NCBI RefSeq assembly: GCF_040546585.1
Contig: NZ_JBEPOC010000001.1
Coordinates: 3,720,001 to 3,784,000 of the forward strand
Reading direction: 5' to 3'
DNA from: Marmoricola sp. OAE513
GTDB lineage: Bacteria; Actinomycetota; Actinomycetes; Propionibacteriales; Nocardioidaceae
DNA: 64,000 nucleotides
Program-made: the position numbers and the translations under genes
Shown here: piece by piece, positions 55,347 through 61,089 of the stretch
Position numbering within the stretch: position 1 is the first letter of the stretch
Layout of the letters: each line of letters starts with the position of its first letter
The notes under the pieces: model-generated
Told to the model about the DNA's origin: nothing
What the model saw: only the letters and a program-made list of their open reading frames with translations
Database searches by the model: none

Positions 55347-56363
55347 TCAGGGTTGCAGCAGGACCTTGATGGCCCGTCGTTCGTCCATCGCTCGATAGCC
55401 CTCGGCGACATCCGCCAGGGGCATCACCGAGTCGAACACCAAGCCGGGGTCGACTGTTCCGCTGGTGACCAGGTCGAGCAGCTCGGGCAGGTACTTGCGC
55501 ACCGGGGCGACGCCGCCCGCGAGGCCGACGTTCTTCGAGAACATCTGGCGCACCGGCAGCACGACGCCGTGCGGTACGCCGACGAACCCGACCATCGCTC
55601 CGGGCCGCGCGACCTCGAAGGCCGTCTTCATCGCCTCGTCGGTGCCCACGCACTCGAGCACGGCGTCCGCCCCCACCCCGTCGGTGATCTCCCGGATGCG
55701 CTCGATGCCCTCGGTGCCGCGCTCGGCGACGACGTGGGTGGCACCGAACGCCCGTGCCACCTCCTGGCGGGAGGCGTGCCGGGACATGGCGACGACCTTC
55801 TCCGCCCCCAGCTGGACCGCGGCCAGCACGCCGCACAGCCCTACCGCGCCGTCACCGACGACGACCACCGTGTCGCCCTTCTTCACCCGCGCCGAGACGG
55901 CGCAGTGCCATCCCGTGGGGAACACGTCGGACAGGGTGAGCAGCGAGGCGACCATCGACGGGTCGGGCATGCCGTCGGTCTTGACCAGGCTGCCCTCGGC
56001 CTGGCCGACCAGCCCGTACTCGCCCTGTCCCCCGGTGGTGAAACCGCCGTGGACGCAGGCCGACTGGGCGCCGTTGAGGCAGTGCGGGCAGGTGTTGTCG
56101 CAGGTGCAGAAGGGCACCACCACGAAGTCGCCCGGCTTGAAGGACCGCACCGCCGAGCCGACCTCCTCGATCACCCCGACCATCTCGTGGCCGATCGTCG
56201 ACCCTGGCGTGATCGGGTTCTCGCCGCGGTACGGCCACAGGTCGGAACCGCAGATGCAGCCGGCGGTGATCTTGATGACAGCGTCGGTCGGTGCCGTGAG
56301 GGCGGGCTCCGGTCGCTCCTCGAGGCGGATGTCCCCGGCGGCGTGGATCGTGGTGACGCGCAT
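55347..56363 (-). CDS. Zinc-dependent alcohol dehydrogenase with structural zinc
   Basis: Medium-chain dehydrogenase of 338 residues. Catalytic zinc in GCICGSDLWPYRG and GHEMVGVI; structural zinc cluster CTCDNTCPHC with a later Cys (about 87-107). Cofactor motif VVVGDGAVGLCGVLAA. Resembles the glutathione-independent or threonine-type subgroup. ATG start with a G-rich site upstream. Divergent from the XRE-MurA gene, 63 bases between starts. Confidence 0.88.
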   Translation of the reverse strand: MRVTTIHAAGDIRLEERPEPALTAPTDAVIKITAGCICGSDLWPYRGENPITPGSTIGHEMVGVIEEVGSAVRSFKPGDFVVVPFCTCDNTCPHCLNGAQSACVHGGFTTGGQGEYGLVGQAEGSLVKTDGMPDPSMVASLLTLSDVFPTGWHCAVSARVKKGDTVVVVGDGAVGLCGVLAAVQLGAEKVVAMSRHASRQEVARAFGATHVVAERGTEGIERIREITDGVGADAVLECVGTDEAMKTAFEVARPGAMVGFVGVPHGVVLPVRQMFSKNVGLAGGVAPVRKYLPELLDLVTSGTVDPGLVFDSVMPLADVAEGYRAMDERRAIKVLLQP

Positions 56364-56398
56364 CCCCCGATCCTGCCAGTGCGCGCCACGTTGGCTTC

Positions 56399-56419
56399 AT
56401 CTCATATCTGAGATAACGT
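56399..56419 (+). promoter_or_regulatory. Inverted-repeat operator over the promoter of the XRE-MurA gene
   Basis: ATCTCA (56399-56404) and TGAGAT (56409-56414) form a perfect inverted repeat around TATC. TAACGT (56414-56419) begins on its last base and is seven bases before the GTG at 56427, the leaderless arrangement seen elsewhere. The repeat would let a bound repressor cover the -10 region. The fused helix-turn-helix of the gene product is the obvious candidate. Confidence 0.6.
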
Positions 56420-56426
56420 CCGCCGG

Positions 56427-57956
56427 GTGACTGCCGACTACCTCACCCAGATCGGCACCCTCATCAGGAGTGCCCGCCACCACCGCGGGTGGACCCAGCA
56501 GCAGCTGGCCGACGCTCTCTCGACCAGTCAGAGTGCCGTCAACCGGATCGAGCGTGGCCACCAGAACGTCTCCCTGGAGATGCTCGCGCGCATCGGCGAG
56601 GCCCTGGACGAGCAGATCGTGAGCATCGGCGCCGGACCGGTGCACCTCCGCGTCACCGGCCCGACCACGCTCTCGGGCAGCATCGACGTCAAGACCTCGA
56701 AGAACGCCGGTGTCGCCCTGCTCTGCGCCGCCCTGCTGAACAACGGTCGCACCACCCTGCGCAAGGTCGCCCGGATCGAGGAGGTCAACCGGCTCCTCGA
56801 GGTGCTCACCAGCATCGGCGTGCGGGCCCGCTGGCTCAACGACCAGAACGACCTCGAGATCGTCCCGCCGGCCCGGTTCGACCTGGCGGCGATCGACGAC
56901 GAGGCCGCCCGCCGTACCCGCTCCATCATCATGTTCCTCGGCCCGCTGCTGCACCGCAGCGACGACTTCGAGCTCCCGTACGCCGGCGGCTGCGACCTCG
57001 GGACCCGCACGGTCGAGCCTCACCTCGCCGCCCTGCGACACTTCGGCCTGGAGGTGAAGGCCACCGAGGGCAGCTACCACGCCACGGTGGCCGACGGCAC
57101 GGTGCCGCTGCGGCCCATCGTGCTCACCGAGCGCGGCGACACGGTCACCGAGAACGCGTTGATGGCCGCTGCCATGTCGCCGGGCACGACCGTCATCCGC
57201 AACGCCAGCCCCAACTACATGGTCCAGGACCTGTGCTTCTTCCTCGTCGAGCTCGGCGTGCAGATCGAGGGCATCGGGACGACGACGCTGACCGTCACCG
57301 GCCGGACCGAGATCGACGTCGACGTCGAGTACTCGCCGAGCGAGGACCCGATCGAGGCGATGTCCCTGCTGGCGGCCGCGATCGTCACCGGCTCGGAGAT
57401 CACCATCCGACGCGTCCCGATCGAGTTCCTCGAGATCGAGCTGGCGCTGCTGGAGGAGATGGGCTTCCGCTACGAGCGCTCCGAGGAGTACCGGGCGGCG
57501 AACGGGCAGACCCGGCTGGTCGACCTGACCACGGCCGTCTCCCCGCTGCACTCCCCCATCGACAAGATCCACCCGATGCCGTTCCCCGGGCTGAACATCG
57601 ACAACCTGCCGTTCTTCGCGATCATCGCCGCCGTCGCCCAGGGCCAGACGATGCTGCACGACTGGGTCTACGAGAACCGGGCCATCTACCTCACCGAGCT
57701 CGGCAAGCTCGGCGGCAAGGTGACGCTGCTGGACCCGCACCGGGTGATGATCGACGGTCCTACGCACTGGTCCGGCGCTGAGATCGTCTGTCCGCCGGCA
57801 CTGCGTCCGGCGGTGGTGATCCTGCTGGCGATGCTCGCCTCCAAGGGCACCTCGGTGCTCCGCTCGGTCTACGTGATCAACCGCGGCTACGAGGACCTCG
57901 CCGAGCGGCTCAACCTGCTCGGAGCACGCATCGAGACCTTCTCGGACCTGCGCTGA
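56427..57956 (+). CDS. XRE helix-turn-helix fused to MurA-type enolpyruvyl transferase
   Basis: Protein of 509 residues. Residues 6-64 form an XRE helix-turn-helix (TLIRSARHHRGWTQQQLADA, STSQSAVNRIERG). Residues 72-509 match UDP-N-acetylglucosamine 1-carboxyvinyltransferase. Key MurA residues are present: K92-N93 (E. coli K22-N23), R165 (R91), the Cys loop YAGGCDLGTRTVEPH with C189 (C115) and R194 (R120), D392 (D305) and the Arg in INRGYE (R397). It may make the first committed peptidoglycan precursor or a related product, and also bind DNA. GTG start; the frame has no earlier conserved sequence. A housekeeping murA probably exists elsewhere. Confidence 0.88.
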   Translation: MTADYLTQIGTLIRSARHHRGWTQQQLADALSTSQSAVNRIERGHQNVSLEMLARIGEALDEQIVSIGAGPVHLRVTGPTTLSGSIDVKTSKNAGVALLCAALLNNGRTTLRKVARIEEVNRLLEVLTSIGVRARWLNDQNDLEIVPPARFDLAAIDDEAARRTRSIIMFLGPLLHRSDDFELPYAGGCDLGTRTVEPHLAALRHFGLEVKATEGSYHATVADGTVPLRPIVLTERGDTVTENALMAAAMSPGTTVIRNASPNYMVQDLCFFLVELGVQIEGIGTTTLTVTGRTEIDVDVEYSPSEDPIEAMSLLAAAIVTGSEITIRRVPIEFLEIELALLEEMGFRYERSEEYRAANGQTRLVDLTTAVSPLHSPIDKIHPMPFPGLNIDNLPFFAIIAAVAQGQTMLHDWVYENRAIYLTELGKLGGKVTLLDPHRVMIDGPTHWSGAEIVCPPALRPAVVILLAMLASKGTSVLRSVYVINRGYEDLAERLNLLGARIETFSDLR

Positions 57957-58330: not shown

Positions 58331-59140
58331 GTGAGGACGATGGCGCGGGTCCGGACGGGTTTCGCCTACCTCGACGACGTCCCCGACGGCACGGTCCTCG
58401 CGATGGCCCACCGCGGCGGTGCGGACCACCCGGACCTGCGCGGCCTGGAGAACACCCGGCACGCCTTCGAGCACGCCGCCGCGCTCGGCTACCGCTACCT
58501 GGAGACCGACGTGCACGCGAGCTCCGACGGCGTCCTGCTGGCCTTCCACGACGACGTGCTCGACAGGGTCACCGACGTCTCCGGGGAGCTCGCCGGGATG
58601 AGGGCCACCGACATCGCGGTGGCCAGGATCGGTGGCGCGCACGCCGTACCGACGATGGCGGAGCTGTTCGAGTCGTTCCCCGAAGCGCGGTTCAACATCG
58701 ATCTCAAGGCCGACGCGGCCGCACGCCCGCTCGCCGACCTGCTGGCGCGCACGGCGTCCGAGGCACGCGTCTGCGTCGGGTCGTTCTCGCTGCCGCGACT
58801 CCGGGAGTTCCGGGCGCTGACGCGAGGACGGGTGGCCACCTCGGCGGCGCCCGCCGAGGTCGGGGCGTTCCTGCTTCCCGGTGCGCCGGCACGCGCCCTG
58901 ACCCGGGGCAGGGTGGCTGCGCTGCAGGTCCCCCGACGGCGGGGTCGGGTGCCGATCGTCACCGCGGGCCTCGTACGCCGGGCGCACGCCGCCGGTGCGC
59001 ACGTGCACGTCTGGACCGTCGACGACCCGGCGGAGATGAACGAGCTGATCGACCTCGGTGTCGACGGGCTGATCACGGACCGGACCGACCTGCTCAAGGA
59101 CGTCCTGGTCGCACGAGGACAGTGGGGGGACCACGGATGA
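58331..59140 (+). CDS. Glycerophosphodiester phosphodiesterase
   Basis: GDPD-family enzyme of 269 residues hydrolysing glycerophosphodiesters to glycerol-3-phosphate and an alcohol. Catalytic motifs: AHRGG (HR, about 20-24), ENTRHAFEHAAALGYRYLETDVHASSDGVLLAFHDD (Glu-X-Asp and His), ARFNIDLKAD and HVWTVDDPAEMNELIDLGVDGLITD. No signal peptide. GTG 58331 or ATG 58340 are both possible; AGGGAG lies four bases before the GTG. The end overlaps the transporter start (ATGA). Confidence 0.9.
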   Translation: MRTMARVRTGFAYLDDVPDGTVLAMAHRGGADHPDLRGLENTRHAFEHAAALGYRYLETDVHASSDGVLLAFHDDVLDRVTDVSGELAGMRATDIAVARIGGAHAVPTMAELFESFPEARFNIDLKADAAARPLADLLARTASEARVCVGSFSLPRLREFRALTRGRVATSAAPAEVGAFLLPGAPARALTRGRVAALQVPRRRGRVPIVTAGLVRRAHAAGAHVHVWTVDDPAEMNELIDLGVDGLITDRTDLLKDVLVARGQWGDHG

Positions 59141-60495
59141 CCGCAGCGGACCGGCTCGCGCAGCAGAAGGCCTGGAACTGGTACGACTGGGCCAACTCGG
59201 CGTTCTTCACCACCGTGCTCTCGGTGATGTTCGCGCCGTACATGATCACGGTGGCCGGCAAGGCCGCCGGCTGCGTCGACGCCGACGAGACCTGCTCGAA
59301 GACGGTCGAGCTGCTCGGTCTGCACCTCGCGGCCGGGTCCCTGCCGAGCTACCTGACCAGCTTTGCCACGATCGCGAGCGCGTTCCTGCTCCCCGTCGTG
59401 GGGGCGTTCGTGGACCGGTCGCACCACAAGAAGCGGCACATGGCCGGGTACGCCTGGGCCGGCGCGGCCTTCGGGTCGCTGCTCTTCTTCCTCGAGGGCG
59501 ACAACTGGCAGCTCGGCGCGGTCGCGGTGGTCTGCGCGAGCATCCTGGCCGGGTGCTCGTTGGTCAGCTACTACGCGATCCTGGTCGACATCTCGACCGA
59601 GGAGGAACGCGACCGCGCGTCCTCGCGCGGCTGGGCGTGGGGCTACCTGGGCGGCGGTGTCCTGCTCGCGGTGAACCTGGTGATGTTCCTGGCTCACGAC
59701 ACCTTCGGGCTCTCCGAGGGGCTTGCCGTCCGCCTCTCGCTGCTCAGTGCGGCGGTCTGGTGGGCCGCCTTCACGATCATCCCGTTCGTGAAGCTGCGCG
59801 ACTACGCCCCCCGCAACCAGGTCGGGGTCGGGGGCAGCGTCTGGACCTCGAGCTTCGGCCAGCTCCTGCGCACGCTCAAGGACCTGCGCAACTACCCCAT
59901 GACGCTCACCTTCCTGGTGGCGTACCTCTTCTACAACGACGGCATCCAGACGGTGATCTACGCCGCGGCGACGTACGGCGAGAAGCAGCTGAAGTTCGGC
60001 ACGTCGGTCCTCATCGGCACGATCCTGCTGATCCAGTTCGTCGCGTTCGGCGGTGCGCTCCTCTTCGGCAGGCTCGCGGCACGGCACGGCGCCTACCGCC
60101 TGATCAAGGCGGGCACCTTCGCCTGGATGGTCATCGTCGTCGTCGCGCTGGCGCTGCCCGAGAAGAACGTCGCCCTGTTCCTGCTGGTCGCCGTGGCCAT
60201 CGGCGTCGTGATGGGCGGCACCCAGGCGCTCTCGCGCTCGTTCTTCAGCCTGCTCATCCCGCGTGGCCGGGAGGGCGAGTACTTCGCGCTGTACGGCGCG
60301 GCCGAGCGCGGGACCTCCTGGTTCGGCACCCTCGTCTTCGGGCTCACCTTCCAGATCACCGGGTCCTACCGCCCCGCGATCCTGGCGCTGATCGTGTTCT
60401 TCGTGCTCGGTGCCGTGTTCCTCGCCCGGCTGGACCCGGTACGGGGCATCCGCGAGGCCGGGAACGCCGTGCCGGAGCCCGTTGCCGGGGTGTGA
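59137..60495 (+). CDS. UMF1-family MFS transporter
   Basis: Integral membrane protein of 452 residues with about 12 predicted helices. The N-terminus QKAWNWYDWANSAFFTTVLSVMFAPYMI is diagnostic of the UMF1 (Atg22-like) family. Further helices include FLLPVVGAFVDRSHHKKR and a late LFLLVAVAIGVVMGGTQALSRSFFSLLIP. Transport substrate unknown, perhaps amino acids or a product of lipid turnover given the coupled GDPD gene. Confidence 0.88.
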   Translation: MTAADRLAQQKAWNWYDWANSAFFTTVLSVMFAPYMITVAGKAAGCVDADETCSKTVELLGLHLAAGSLPSYLTSFATIASAFLLPVVGAFVDRSHHKKRHMAGYAWAGAAFGSLLFFLEGDNWQLGAVAVVCASILAGCSLVSYYAILVDISTEEERDRASSRGWAWGYLGGGVLLAVNLVMFLAHDTFGLSEGLAVRLSLLSAAVWWAAFTIIPFVKLRDYAPRNQVGVGGSVWTSSFGQLLRTLKDLRNYPMTLTFLVAYLFYNDGIQTVIYAAATYGEKQLKFGTSVLIGTILLIQFVAFGGALLFGRLAARHGAYRLIKAGTFAWMVIVVVALALPEKNVALFLLVAVAIGVVMGGTQALSRSFFSLLIPRGREGEYFALYGAAERGTSWFGTLVFGLTFQITGSYRPAILALIVFFVLGAVFLARLDPVRGIREAGNAVPEPVAGV

Positions 60496-60521
60496 GACCC
60501 GTCTCGCGCTCGCGCTGGGCG

Positions 60522-60547
60522 GGAATCCTCAAGGTGCGCGGGTCGTT
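60522..60547 (+). promoter_or_regulatory. SigR-type promoter of rbpA
   Basis: GGAAT (60522-60526, in GGGAAT) and GTT (60545-60547) are separated by exactly 18 bases. This equals the consensus of the Streptomyces thiol-stress sigma factor SigR (GGAAT-N18-GTT), whose known regulon includes rbpA. It lies 150 bases before the rbpA ATG, leaving a leader of about 140 bases. A second possible element (TTGAAT at 60630 region) is weaker. Confidence 0.6.
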
Positions 60548-60696
60548 GTCGATCTGTCATGGTGGAACGTGGCCCGCAGCGGGCCGCACCGCGCCGACGG
60601 GTGCTCCGGCGTCACGAACGACTTGAATGCCCGTCCCTGAGGTAGTACGCATGAGTGGGACCACGATCTGGCCCCACAAGACTTTTGGAGGATTTC

Positions 60697-61089
60697 ATGG
60701 GAGACCGCACCCTGCGAGGCGCACGCCTCGGCGGCCAGAGCTTCGAGGACGAGCGCGGCATCGAGTTCGCCGCCCGTCAGCAGGTCGGCTACCAGTGCAC
60801 CCGCGGACACCTGTTCGAGATCACCATGTCCGTCGAGGCCGAGGTCCCGGCCACCTGGGAGTGCCCGCGCTGCGGCGCCGAGGGCCTGAGCACCGCCGGC
60901 ATCCTGCCCGAGGAGAAGGTCGAGAAGCCGGCCCGCACGCACTGGGACATGCTGCTGGAGCGTCGCTCGATCAAGGAGCTCGAGGACATCCTCACCGAGC
61001 GTCTCGAGCTGCTGCGCGGCGGCGAGATCGGTCCGGCGCACCTGCACCGCCCGGTCAAGAAGTCCGCGAAGAAGAAGGCCAACGCCTAG
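60697..61089 (+). CDS. rbpA: RNA polymerase-binding protein RbpA
   Basis: Actinobacterial transcription factor of 130 residues that stabilises the RNA polymerase-sigma A holoenzyme and open complex. It has LGGQSFEDERGIEFAARQQV, a core with Cys (QCTRGH ... ECPRCG) and a C-terminal sigma-interaction region ending RPVKKSAKKKANA. ATG 60697 has GGAGG five bases upstream. It is preceded by a SigR-like promoter. The basic tail is typical. Confidence 0.95.
   Translation: MGDRTLRGARLGGQSFEDERGIEFAARQQVGYQCTRGHLFEITMSVEAEVPATWECPRCGAEGLSTAGILPEEKVEKPARTHWDMLLERRSIKELEDILTERLELLRGGEIGPAHLHRPVKKSAKKKANA

Follow-up and report, generated by a model that had tools for sequence, protein, structure and literature searches.

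A MurA-Type Enolpyruvyl Transferase Fused to an XRE Domain Probably Sets Its Own Level in Many Soil Actinobacteria

Introduction

The gene analyzed here encodes a helix-turn-helix domain of the XRE family joined in one chain to a MurA-type domain, and its product is most likely an enzyme and a regulator at once: a UDP-GlcNAc enolpyruvyl transferase (MurA) repressing its own gene through a conserved operator lying on the promoter. In many soil actinobacteria the fused MurA thus probably sets its own level. The analysis started from a 64,000-nucleotide stretch of the genome of Marmoricola sp. OAE513, referred to below as the window, and it is from comparison of sequences that we infer dimerization, DNA binding, repression, and MurA activity of the fused protein.

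MurA is the first enzyme of peptidoglycan synthesis, the gate to the cell wall, and a drug target. To our knowledge, the control of its expression is little understood in most bacterial groups. A whole clade appears to solve the problem of MurA level inside one protein, usually with one operator per genome.

Computational Details

The 178 orthologue loci were reduced to 168 distinct upstream regions, with L001-L003, L034-L063, and L280-L290 left out. A script assigned the start codon of each orthologue, taking whichever ATG, GTG, or TTG was closest to the aligned first residue. An operator was called where at least 12 of 16 consensus bases were present, and dinucleotide-preserving shuffles of the regions served as the control. 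Active-site residues were compared in 28 fused and 41 ordinary sequences with E. coli MurA as the alignment reference; for L149 and L152, which have two MurAs per stretch, the better-scoring MurA alone entered the residue alignment and the tree. To count genomes with the fused protein as the sole MurA, TIGR01072 was applied with a threshold of E 1e-50 to the 394 genomes of the class-wide sample. The counts 105/114, 15/280, and 40/114 given below were tallied by hand from the result tables.

Results and Discussion

Architecture of the Fused Protein

The features of the locus are collected in Table 1. An earlier note on this DNA had described the protein as a full XRE domain joined to a MurA-like domain, and this architecture is borne out when the N-terminal part and the rest of the chain are checked separately, each yielding its own profile. 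The first 71 residues match Pfam HTH_3 with E 6e-14, above the gathering score, and HTH_31 is likewise above its cut-off, as expected for a Cro/CI-type helix-turn-helix, while residues 76-495 match EPSP_synthase (PF00275) above its gathering score with E 5e-47 (161 bits, cut-off 22.8). The best NCBIfam model is the MurA subfamily PRK09369, with 320 bits against a cut-off of 297. The cut-off of the TIGR01072 murA equivalog is missed (302.1 vs 392.7 bits), and the protein is therefore filed in the wider MurA subfamily, outside the equivalog. In the AlphaFold model, which has a mean pLDDT of 87, residues 71-508 superpose on solved MurA structures in VIA-align with Z up to 46.5, the matches spanning residues 70-508, i.e., the MurA part without the helix-turn-helix. 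Both the MurA and the helix-turn-helix models are matched at E <=1e-5 by all 40 orthologues in the alignment.

Table 1. Features of the Fused Gene and Its Upstream Region in the Window
Feature	Position	Strand	Remarks
Possible -35 element TTGGCT	56391..56396	+	17-nt spacer; TTG start at the same spacing in 18/167, not conserved
Operator CATCTCATATCTGAGATA	56398..56415	.	One base off the family consensus TATCTCAYATVTGAGATA; single place in own genome
-10-like box TAACGT (TANNNT)	56414..56419	+	Two-base overlap with operator
XRE-MurA fusion gene	56427..57956	+	GTG start, stop included, 509 aa; orthologues fused in relatives
XRE helix-turn-helix part, residues ~7-62	56445..56612	+	Pfam HTH_3 and HTH_31; AlphaFold helices
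Short linker, residues ~63-70	56613..56636	+	pLDDT <50 at 64-70
MurA-fold domain, residues 71-508	56637..57950	+	Pfam EPSP_synthase; VIA-align Z 46.5 vs solved MurA

A Conserved Operator on the Promoter

The inverted repeat ATCTCA-TATC-TGAGAT that the earlier note had placed at 56399-56414, with TAACGT starting on its last base at 56414-56419, is found exactly there, and it forms the core of an 18-bp palindromic operator. In the window this 18-mer is the only place with at most three mismatches (seen on both strands; chance 0.03), and in the genome the only place with at most two. The autoregulation suggested from the window would have been refuted by loss of the repeat from relatives with the fused gene, and the comparison speaks strongly in its favor, since the operator TATCTCAYATVTGAGATA is kept in 167 of the 168 distinct orthologue upstream regions, from Nocardioides to Streptomyces, as compared with 7 of 3360 shuffles. 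The sole region of the 168 without a recognizable operator is that of L192 (G326), where the fused gene is the only MurA found.

The flanks of the operator are little conserved across the orthologues. Its right end reads TA in 167/167 cases, a TANNNT box is present there in 159/167, and the gap between the operator and the start codon is 10-12 nt in 150/167 of the regions. TANNNT is the actinobacterial form of the -10 element. We retain the earlier assignment of TAACGT as a -10 element because TANNNT is conserved; against the assignment stand a scan for consensus sigma-70 sites, which found no promoter at the window's operator, and the match of TAACGT to TATAAT at just 3 of 6 bases. No terminator was found by the scan either. 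With transcription starting about 7 bases past the -10 box, the mRNA of the fused gene would be leaderless or nearly so. In two loci (L134 and L135) the start codon is 39 nt away from the operator, which is still on promoter-like sequence. There, a purine-rich, ribosome-site-like stretch precedes the start codon, and the operator seems to be tied to the promoter rather than to the start codon.

The operator also accompanies the gene from genome to genome. Allowing two mismatches, the motif is present in 45 of the 58 relatives, all of them among the 54 carriers, and in none of the four genomes where no gene was detected (two of these assemblies are less than 90% complete); in 42 of these 45 relatives it occurs at one genomic place only. 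In the class-wide sample it is present in 105 of 114 carriers vs 15 of 280 non-carriers, shared ancestry inflating such co-occurrence counts, and the reversed pattern used as a control is found in 0/58 relatives and 1/394 class-sample genomes. The motif is absent at two mismatches from 9 of the 114 class-sample carriers, and the misses among carriers are in part sites with at least three mismatches at the same place. The simplest role for a regulator that is retained along with one site on its own -10 box is that of an autorepressor, and the sequences point to a fused protein dedicated to this function.

A multi-gene regulon was also considered and rejected, extra operator places among the 58 relatives being confined to G026, G043, and G052. 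In the class sample, among the matches listed, they occur in G357 and G265.

Neighboring Genes

The alcohol dehydrogenase gene at 55347-56363 is divergent from the fused gene, with its start codon 34 nt from the operator, and the earlier note had suggested that it is perhaps repressed together with the fused gene. Of the 80 named loci, 31 have a divergent homologue no more than 400 nt away, and in 6 of the set the upstream flank is short; the set comprises the 80 best among 588 confirmed stretches and is thus no measure of spread. As the operator persists in loci without a divergent dehydrogenase, and so is independent of it, the dehydrogenase is not a general partner; where present, it could be co-controlled. 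In the Streptomyces and Actinacidiphila loci an aconitase is divergent in the upstream flank in 12 of 14 cases, within 410 nt in 6. Downstream in the window, at 58331-61089, there are two genes with homologues in the flanks of 52/80 and 48/80 named loci, which from their sequences we take to be GDPD-like and small RbpA-like, respectively.

Carriers and the Role of MurA in the Cell

The genome of the window is a single contig of 3.89 Mb with three PF00275 genes: an AroA above the TIGR01356 cut-off, an ordinary MurA in a 470-aa frame that is 32.5% identical to the fused MurA, and the fused gene. Among the 58 relatives the fusion is found in 54, as 53 full-length copies and one fragment at a contig end. 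In the class-wide sample the gene is present in 114 of 394 genomes and 25 of 137 genera, and 111 of the 114 copies run through both domains without a break, those of G137, G265, and G353 being broken or cut short. Named carriers include Nocardioides, Marmoricola, Aeromicrobium, Kribbella, Brachybacterium, Pedococcus, Nonomuraea, Allokutzneria, and Streptomyces. A sample of 296 genomes of the phylum gave 12 fused matches, all inside the class. The other 33 matches of that sample, none of which begins before residue 52 (most begin at 72-77), have 31-36% identity and correspond to ordinary MurA, so that a presence outside the class was rejected there. Viral contigs were also searched for the fused gene, and no carrier was found among them.

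Some individual cases may be mentioned here. Against a confinement to the class, the fused gene turns up, with 76% identity, in a metagenome bin labelled Acidimicrobiia (L278), one of the 80 named loci, perhaps through wrong binning or through transfer. In L290 (G137:C1:1261840-1263365) a frameshift splits the fused gene, which may be due to a sequencing error or to a recent break, and no other MurA was found in that genome. At G265:C24:76055-78824 two pieces of the gene are present, and two operator-like sites lie about 1.2 kb from each other. Three related drafts (G022, G023, and G031) have one PF00275 gene each, an AroA, and neither MurA type was found in them, the drafts being incomplete or the absence real.

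The fused protein is the sole MurA found in 40 of the 114 class-sample carriers, a count that includes the frameshifted G137. These sole MurA genes score about 1e-88 to 1e-94 with TIGR01072 (2e-61 for G137), and ordinary MurAs mostly score 1e-122 or below. Among the closer relatives, 14 of the 54 carriers have no more than two PF00275 genes, and in 14/14 the other gene is AroA, passing the TIGR01356 cut-off; four of these genomes (G030, G037, G045, and G053) are single-contig assemblies. The earlier proposal of a second enolpyruvyl transfer pathway is at odds with these counts. MurB uses the product of MurA. Of the 51 genomes known here to have the fused protein as their only MurA, 27 were tested for murB and all 27 have it, 26 of them over the curated cut-off. 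With murB present and no further MurA found in many carriers, the fused protein, by elimination, must be able to fill the MurA role in the cell. As a separate observation, L151 and L076 (G017:C1:160834-162066) have an extra AroA-like gene that is just 31% identical to their own AroA.

Phylogeny

The fused proteins make up a single group (100/100) when 70 MurA domains are placed in a maximum-likelihood tree; the stem of this group is very long, at 3.28 changes per site, and the group does not fall among the ordinary MurAs of the class to which the fused proteins belong. Closest to it in the unrooted tree stand eight ordinary MurAs that come from other classes of the phylum (99/98), but the long stem makes this position unsure. 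The fused MurA is about 30% identical to housekeeping MurA. Conservation within the fused group is good: members from two other families of the order are about 73-79% identical to the fused protein of the window, the corresponding identity of the Asp-type ordinary MurA being about 60-62%.

The family that holds Actinopolymorpha has a further, diverged Cys-type MurA beside the ordinary Asp-type MurA (L149 = G042:C1:6055400-6058300, L152, L108/L109, and L110/L111), with the motif GGCRIGDR in L109 and L110, so that fused, ordinary, and diverged proteins make three MurA types per genome. The diverged and ordinary genes are arranged tail to tail in G039, G042, G047, and G057, the diverged one lying on a very long branch.

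Active-Site Residues

The catalytic Cys, Lys, Asp, and Arg residues that the earlier note had read from the window are confirmed by alignment, Lys92, Cys189, and Asp392 of the fused protein corresponding to K22, C115, and D305 of E. coli MurA, and five Arg residues to R91, R120, R331, R371, and R397. In the E. coli numbering, K22, N23, R91, C115, R120, H125, T166, D305, R331, R371, and R397 are kept in 28/28 fused proteins.

Other positions set the clade apart. S162 and E188, invariant in 41/41 ordinary MurAs, are replaced by G in 26 of 28 fused proteins (S in the other two) and by N in 28/28, respectively; V163, found in 39/41 ordinary MurAs, is D in 28/28; and at D369, found in 40/41, a Pro is aligned in the fused proteins. 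The fused clade accordingly does not have the usual UDP-site pair of S162 and V163. Since we take S162-V163 of E. coli MurA to contact the UDP part of the substrate, the nucleotide site of the fused MurA seems to be rebuilt, with the PEP and catalytic side intact, and the alteration in the clade of residues that are near-invariant in ordinary MurA (S162, V163, and E188) indicates that its binding of the UDP-sugar probably differs.

At position 115, Asp is found in 35 of the 41 ordinary MurAs, which all come from the same phylum, and Cys in 28/28 fused proteins. The ordinary MurA of the window's own genus (L002; G000:C1:690196-691443) likewise has Asp at the position of E. coli Cys115 (GGDAIG), where the fused MurA has Cys. 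The ordinary Asp-type and the fused Cys-type enzymes may differ in fosfomycin sensitivity.

Proposed Mechanism and Alternatives

In the mechanism that we propose, the XRE domains of two copies of the protein would bind the 18-bp palindrome, the half-sites of which are about one helical turn apart, and the bound pair would cover the -10 box, thereby keeping RNA polymerase off the leaderless or nearly leaderless promoter. Rising MurA would then lead to falling murA transcription, which would set the flux into peptidoglycan. Repression is chosen as the sign of the effect because of the position of the operator alone. In the most speculative step, the MurA domain, opening and closing in response to its ligands, would alter DNA binding through the short linker, the contrasted states being the one with UDP-GlcNAc and PEP and the product-side UDP-MurNAc complex, so that repression would report the occupancy of the enzyme as well as its amount. 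According to the excerpt of PMC9346081, the binding of UDP-GlcNAc initiates loop closure in MurA, and solved MurA structures (e.g., 3swd) have, by their titles, UDP-MurNAc together with a PEP adduct on the Cys. Taken together, these suggest that differently shaped ligand states may exist for the helix-turn-helix to report, and sensing of UDP-GlcNAc or PEP by the fused protein is plausible. That active-site occupancy of the fused MurA gates its binding to one conserved operator of its own gene in many actinomycetes is a reading we put forward tentatively, as something close to an even call; the gating states may be the one with UDP-GlcNAc and PEP, the UDP-MurNAc-bound one, or a fosfomycin adduct on the retained Cys.

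In its simplest version, the proposed explanation dispenses with the ligand, the fused protein repressing by its amount and the fusion coupling the repressor to the enzyme level. This version accounts for the usually single target and for the constancy of the fusion, and linker residues 64-70, having low confidence in the model, may be flexible. Full uncoupling from a ligand-binding domain that changes shape would, however, be somewhat surprising, and we regard repression by amount as a serious possibility while leaning against it. The MurA domain might instead be mainly a sensor, acting on another acceptor or with little catalysis, with the ordinary MurA doing the work. Such a division of labor would fit the replaced UDP-site residues, the stem branch of 3.28 changes per site, and the ordinary MurA in the window's own genome, but it is made decidedly improbable by the catalytic residues retained in 28/28 and by the 40/114 carriers in which the fused protein is the only MurA found, together with murB in 27/27 such genomes tested.

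The remaining alternatives concern what binds the operator and to what effect. Another regulator could bind the palindrome, the fused helix-turn-helix acting elsewhere or having lost DNA binding; other regulators do act in this region, since the BldM-WhiI heterodimer binds the murA2 promoter region of Streptomyces venezuelae (excerpt of PMC4125116). Its site as given in that excerpt, TGnnCCGnnCGGGTGA, is however a sequence unlike the operator, which moreover co-occurs with the fused gene (105/114 vs 15/280) and is absent from 4/4 relatives without a detected gene (two less than 90% complete), and a regulator having further targets would leave more sites, so that only a very slim chance is left to this explanation. 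It is likewise unlikely, if less markedly so, that the operator serves in activation or that the divergent alcohol dehydrogenase is under its control as well. The 34 nt between the dehydrogenase start codon and the operator in the window, and the divergent homologue in 31/80 named loci, would speak for such a role, but the site overlaps the murA -10-like box in 159/167 regions, which is a repressing position, and it stays where the dehydrogenase is absent. Autorepression by the fused MurA is therefore the part of the earlier interpretation that the comparison supports; the second pathway and the dehydrogenase as a general partner are given up.

If true, ligand gating would make the fused MurA a one-protein feedback sensor of cell-wall precursor supply. 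Control of MurA level inside one protein would also supply a reporter, already in place, for ligands and inhibitors of MurA, and it would offer a new reading of Streptomyces murA2.

Comparison with Known Systems

Streptomyces coelicolor SCO5998 (MurA2) is probably an orthologue of the fused protein, because the Streptomyces loci carry the fused gene with the aconitase divergent, as at SCO5998-SCO5999. In the excerpts of the respective papers, murA2 (SCO5998) is one of two Streptomyces MurAs, with a predicted DmdR1 site between murA2 and aconitase (PMC12161575), its promoter is SigB-dependent (PMC8346170), it is under BldM-WhiI control in development (PMC4125116), and its overexpression did not reproduce the effect of whiI overexpression on exploration (PMC11005364). 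The excerpts of these four accounts mention neither a helix-turn-helix domain nor a self-operator, and in the open-licence PMC literature, among the matches listed, no title or opening of an abstract names an XRE-MurA fusion or its operator.

XRE autorepressors bind as dimers to a palindrome at their own promoter, according to the excerpt of PMC12565409; the fused gene has such a palindrome at its own promoter in 167/168 distinct upstream regions, as expected of a regulator of the XRE family, and its product would presumably read it as a dimer. The main text of that large 2025 survey of XRE palindromes does not contain TGAGA, TCTCA, or carboxyvinyltransferase, with "mura" occurring there solely as part of an author's name, and the motif may be in its Table S1.

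With ordinary MurA (E. coli murA; PF00275, PRK09369) the fused protein shares the fold (Z up to 46.5) and the PEP and catalytic residues K22, R91, C115, R120, D305, R331, R371, and R397. It differs in the added N-terminal XRE domain and in the replacement of S162, V163, and E188 in nearly all or all members.

BirA is the repressor of the biotin operon, and its enzyme fold is unrelated to that of MurA. As in the fused protein, an N-terminal helix-turn-helix and an enzyme are combined in one chain (excerpts of PMC6978683 and PMC4016012). The excerpt of PMC6978683 presents PutA and BirA as established enzyme-repressors. The trifunctional PutA joins a ribbon-helix-helix to proline oxidation (excerpts of PMC5293562 and PMC6978683), whereas the fused protein joins an XRE domain to MurA. 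With enzyme and putative repressor in one chain and the operator on its own promoter, the fused MurA has the makings of an autogenous enzyme-repressor, that is, of a PutA-like trigger enzyme.
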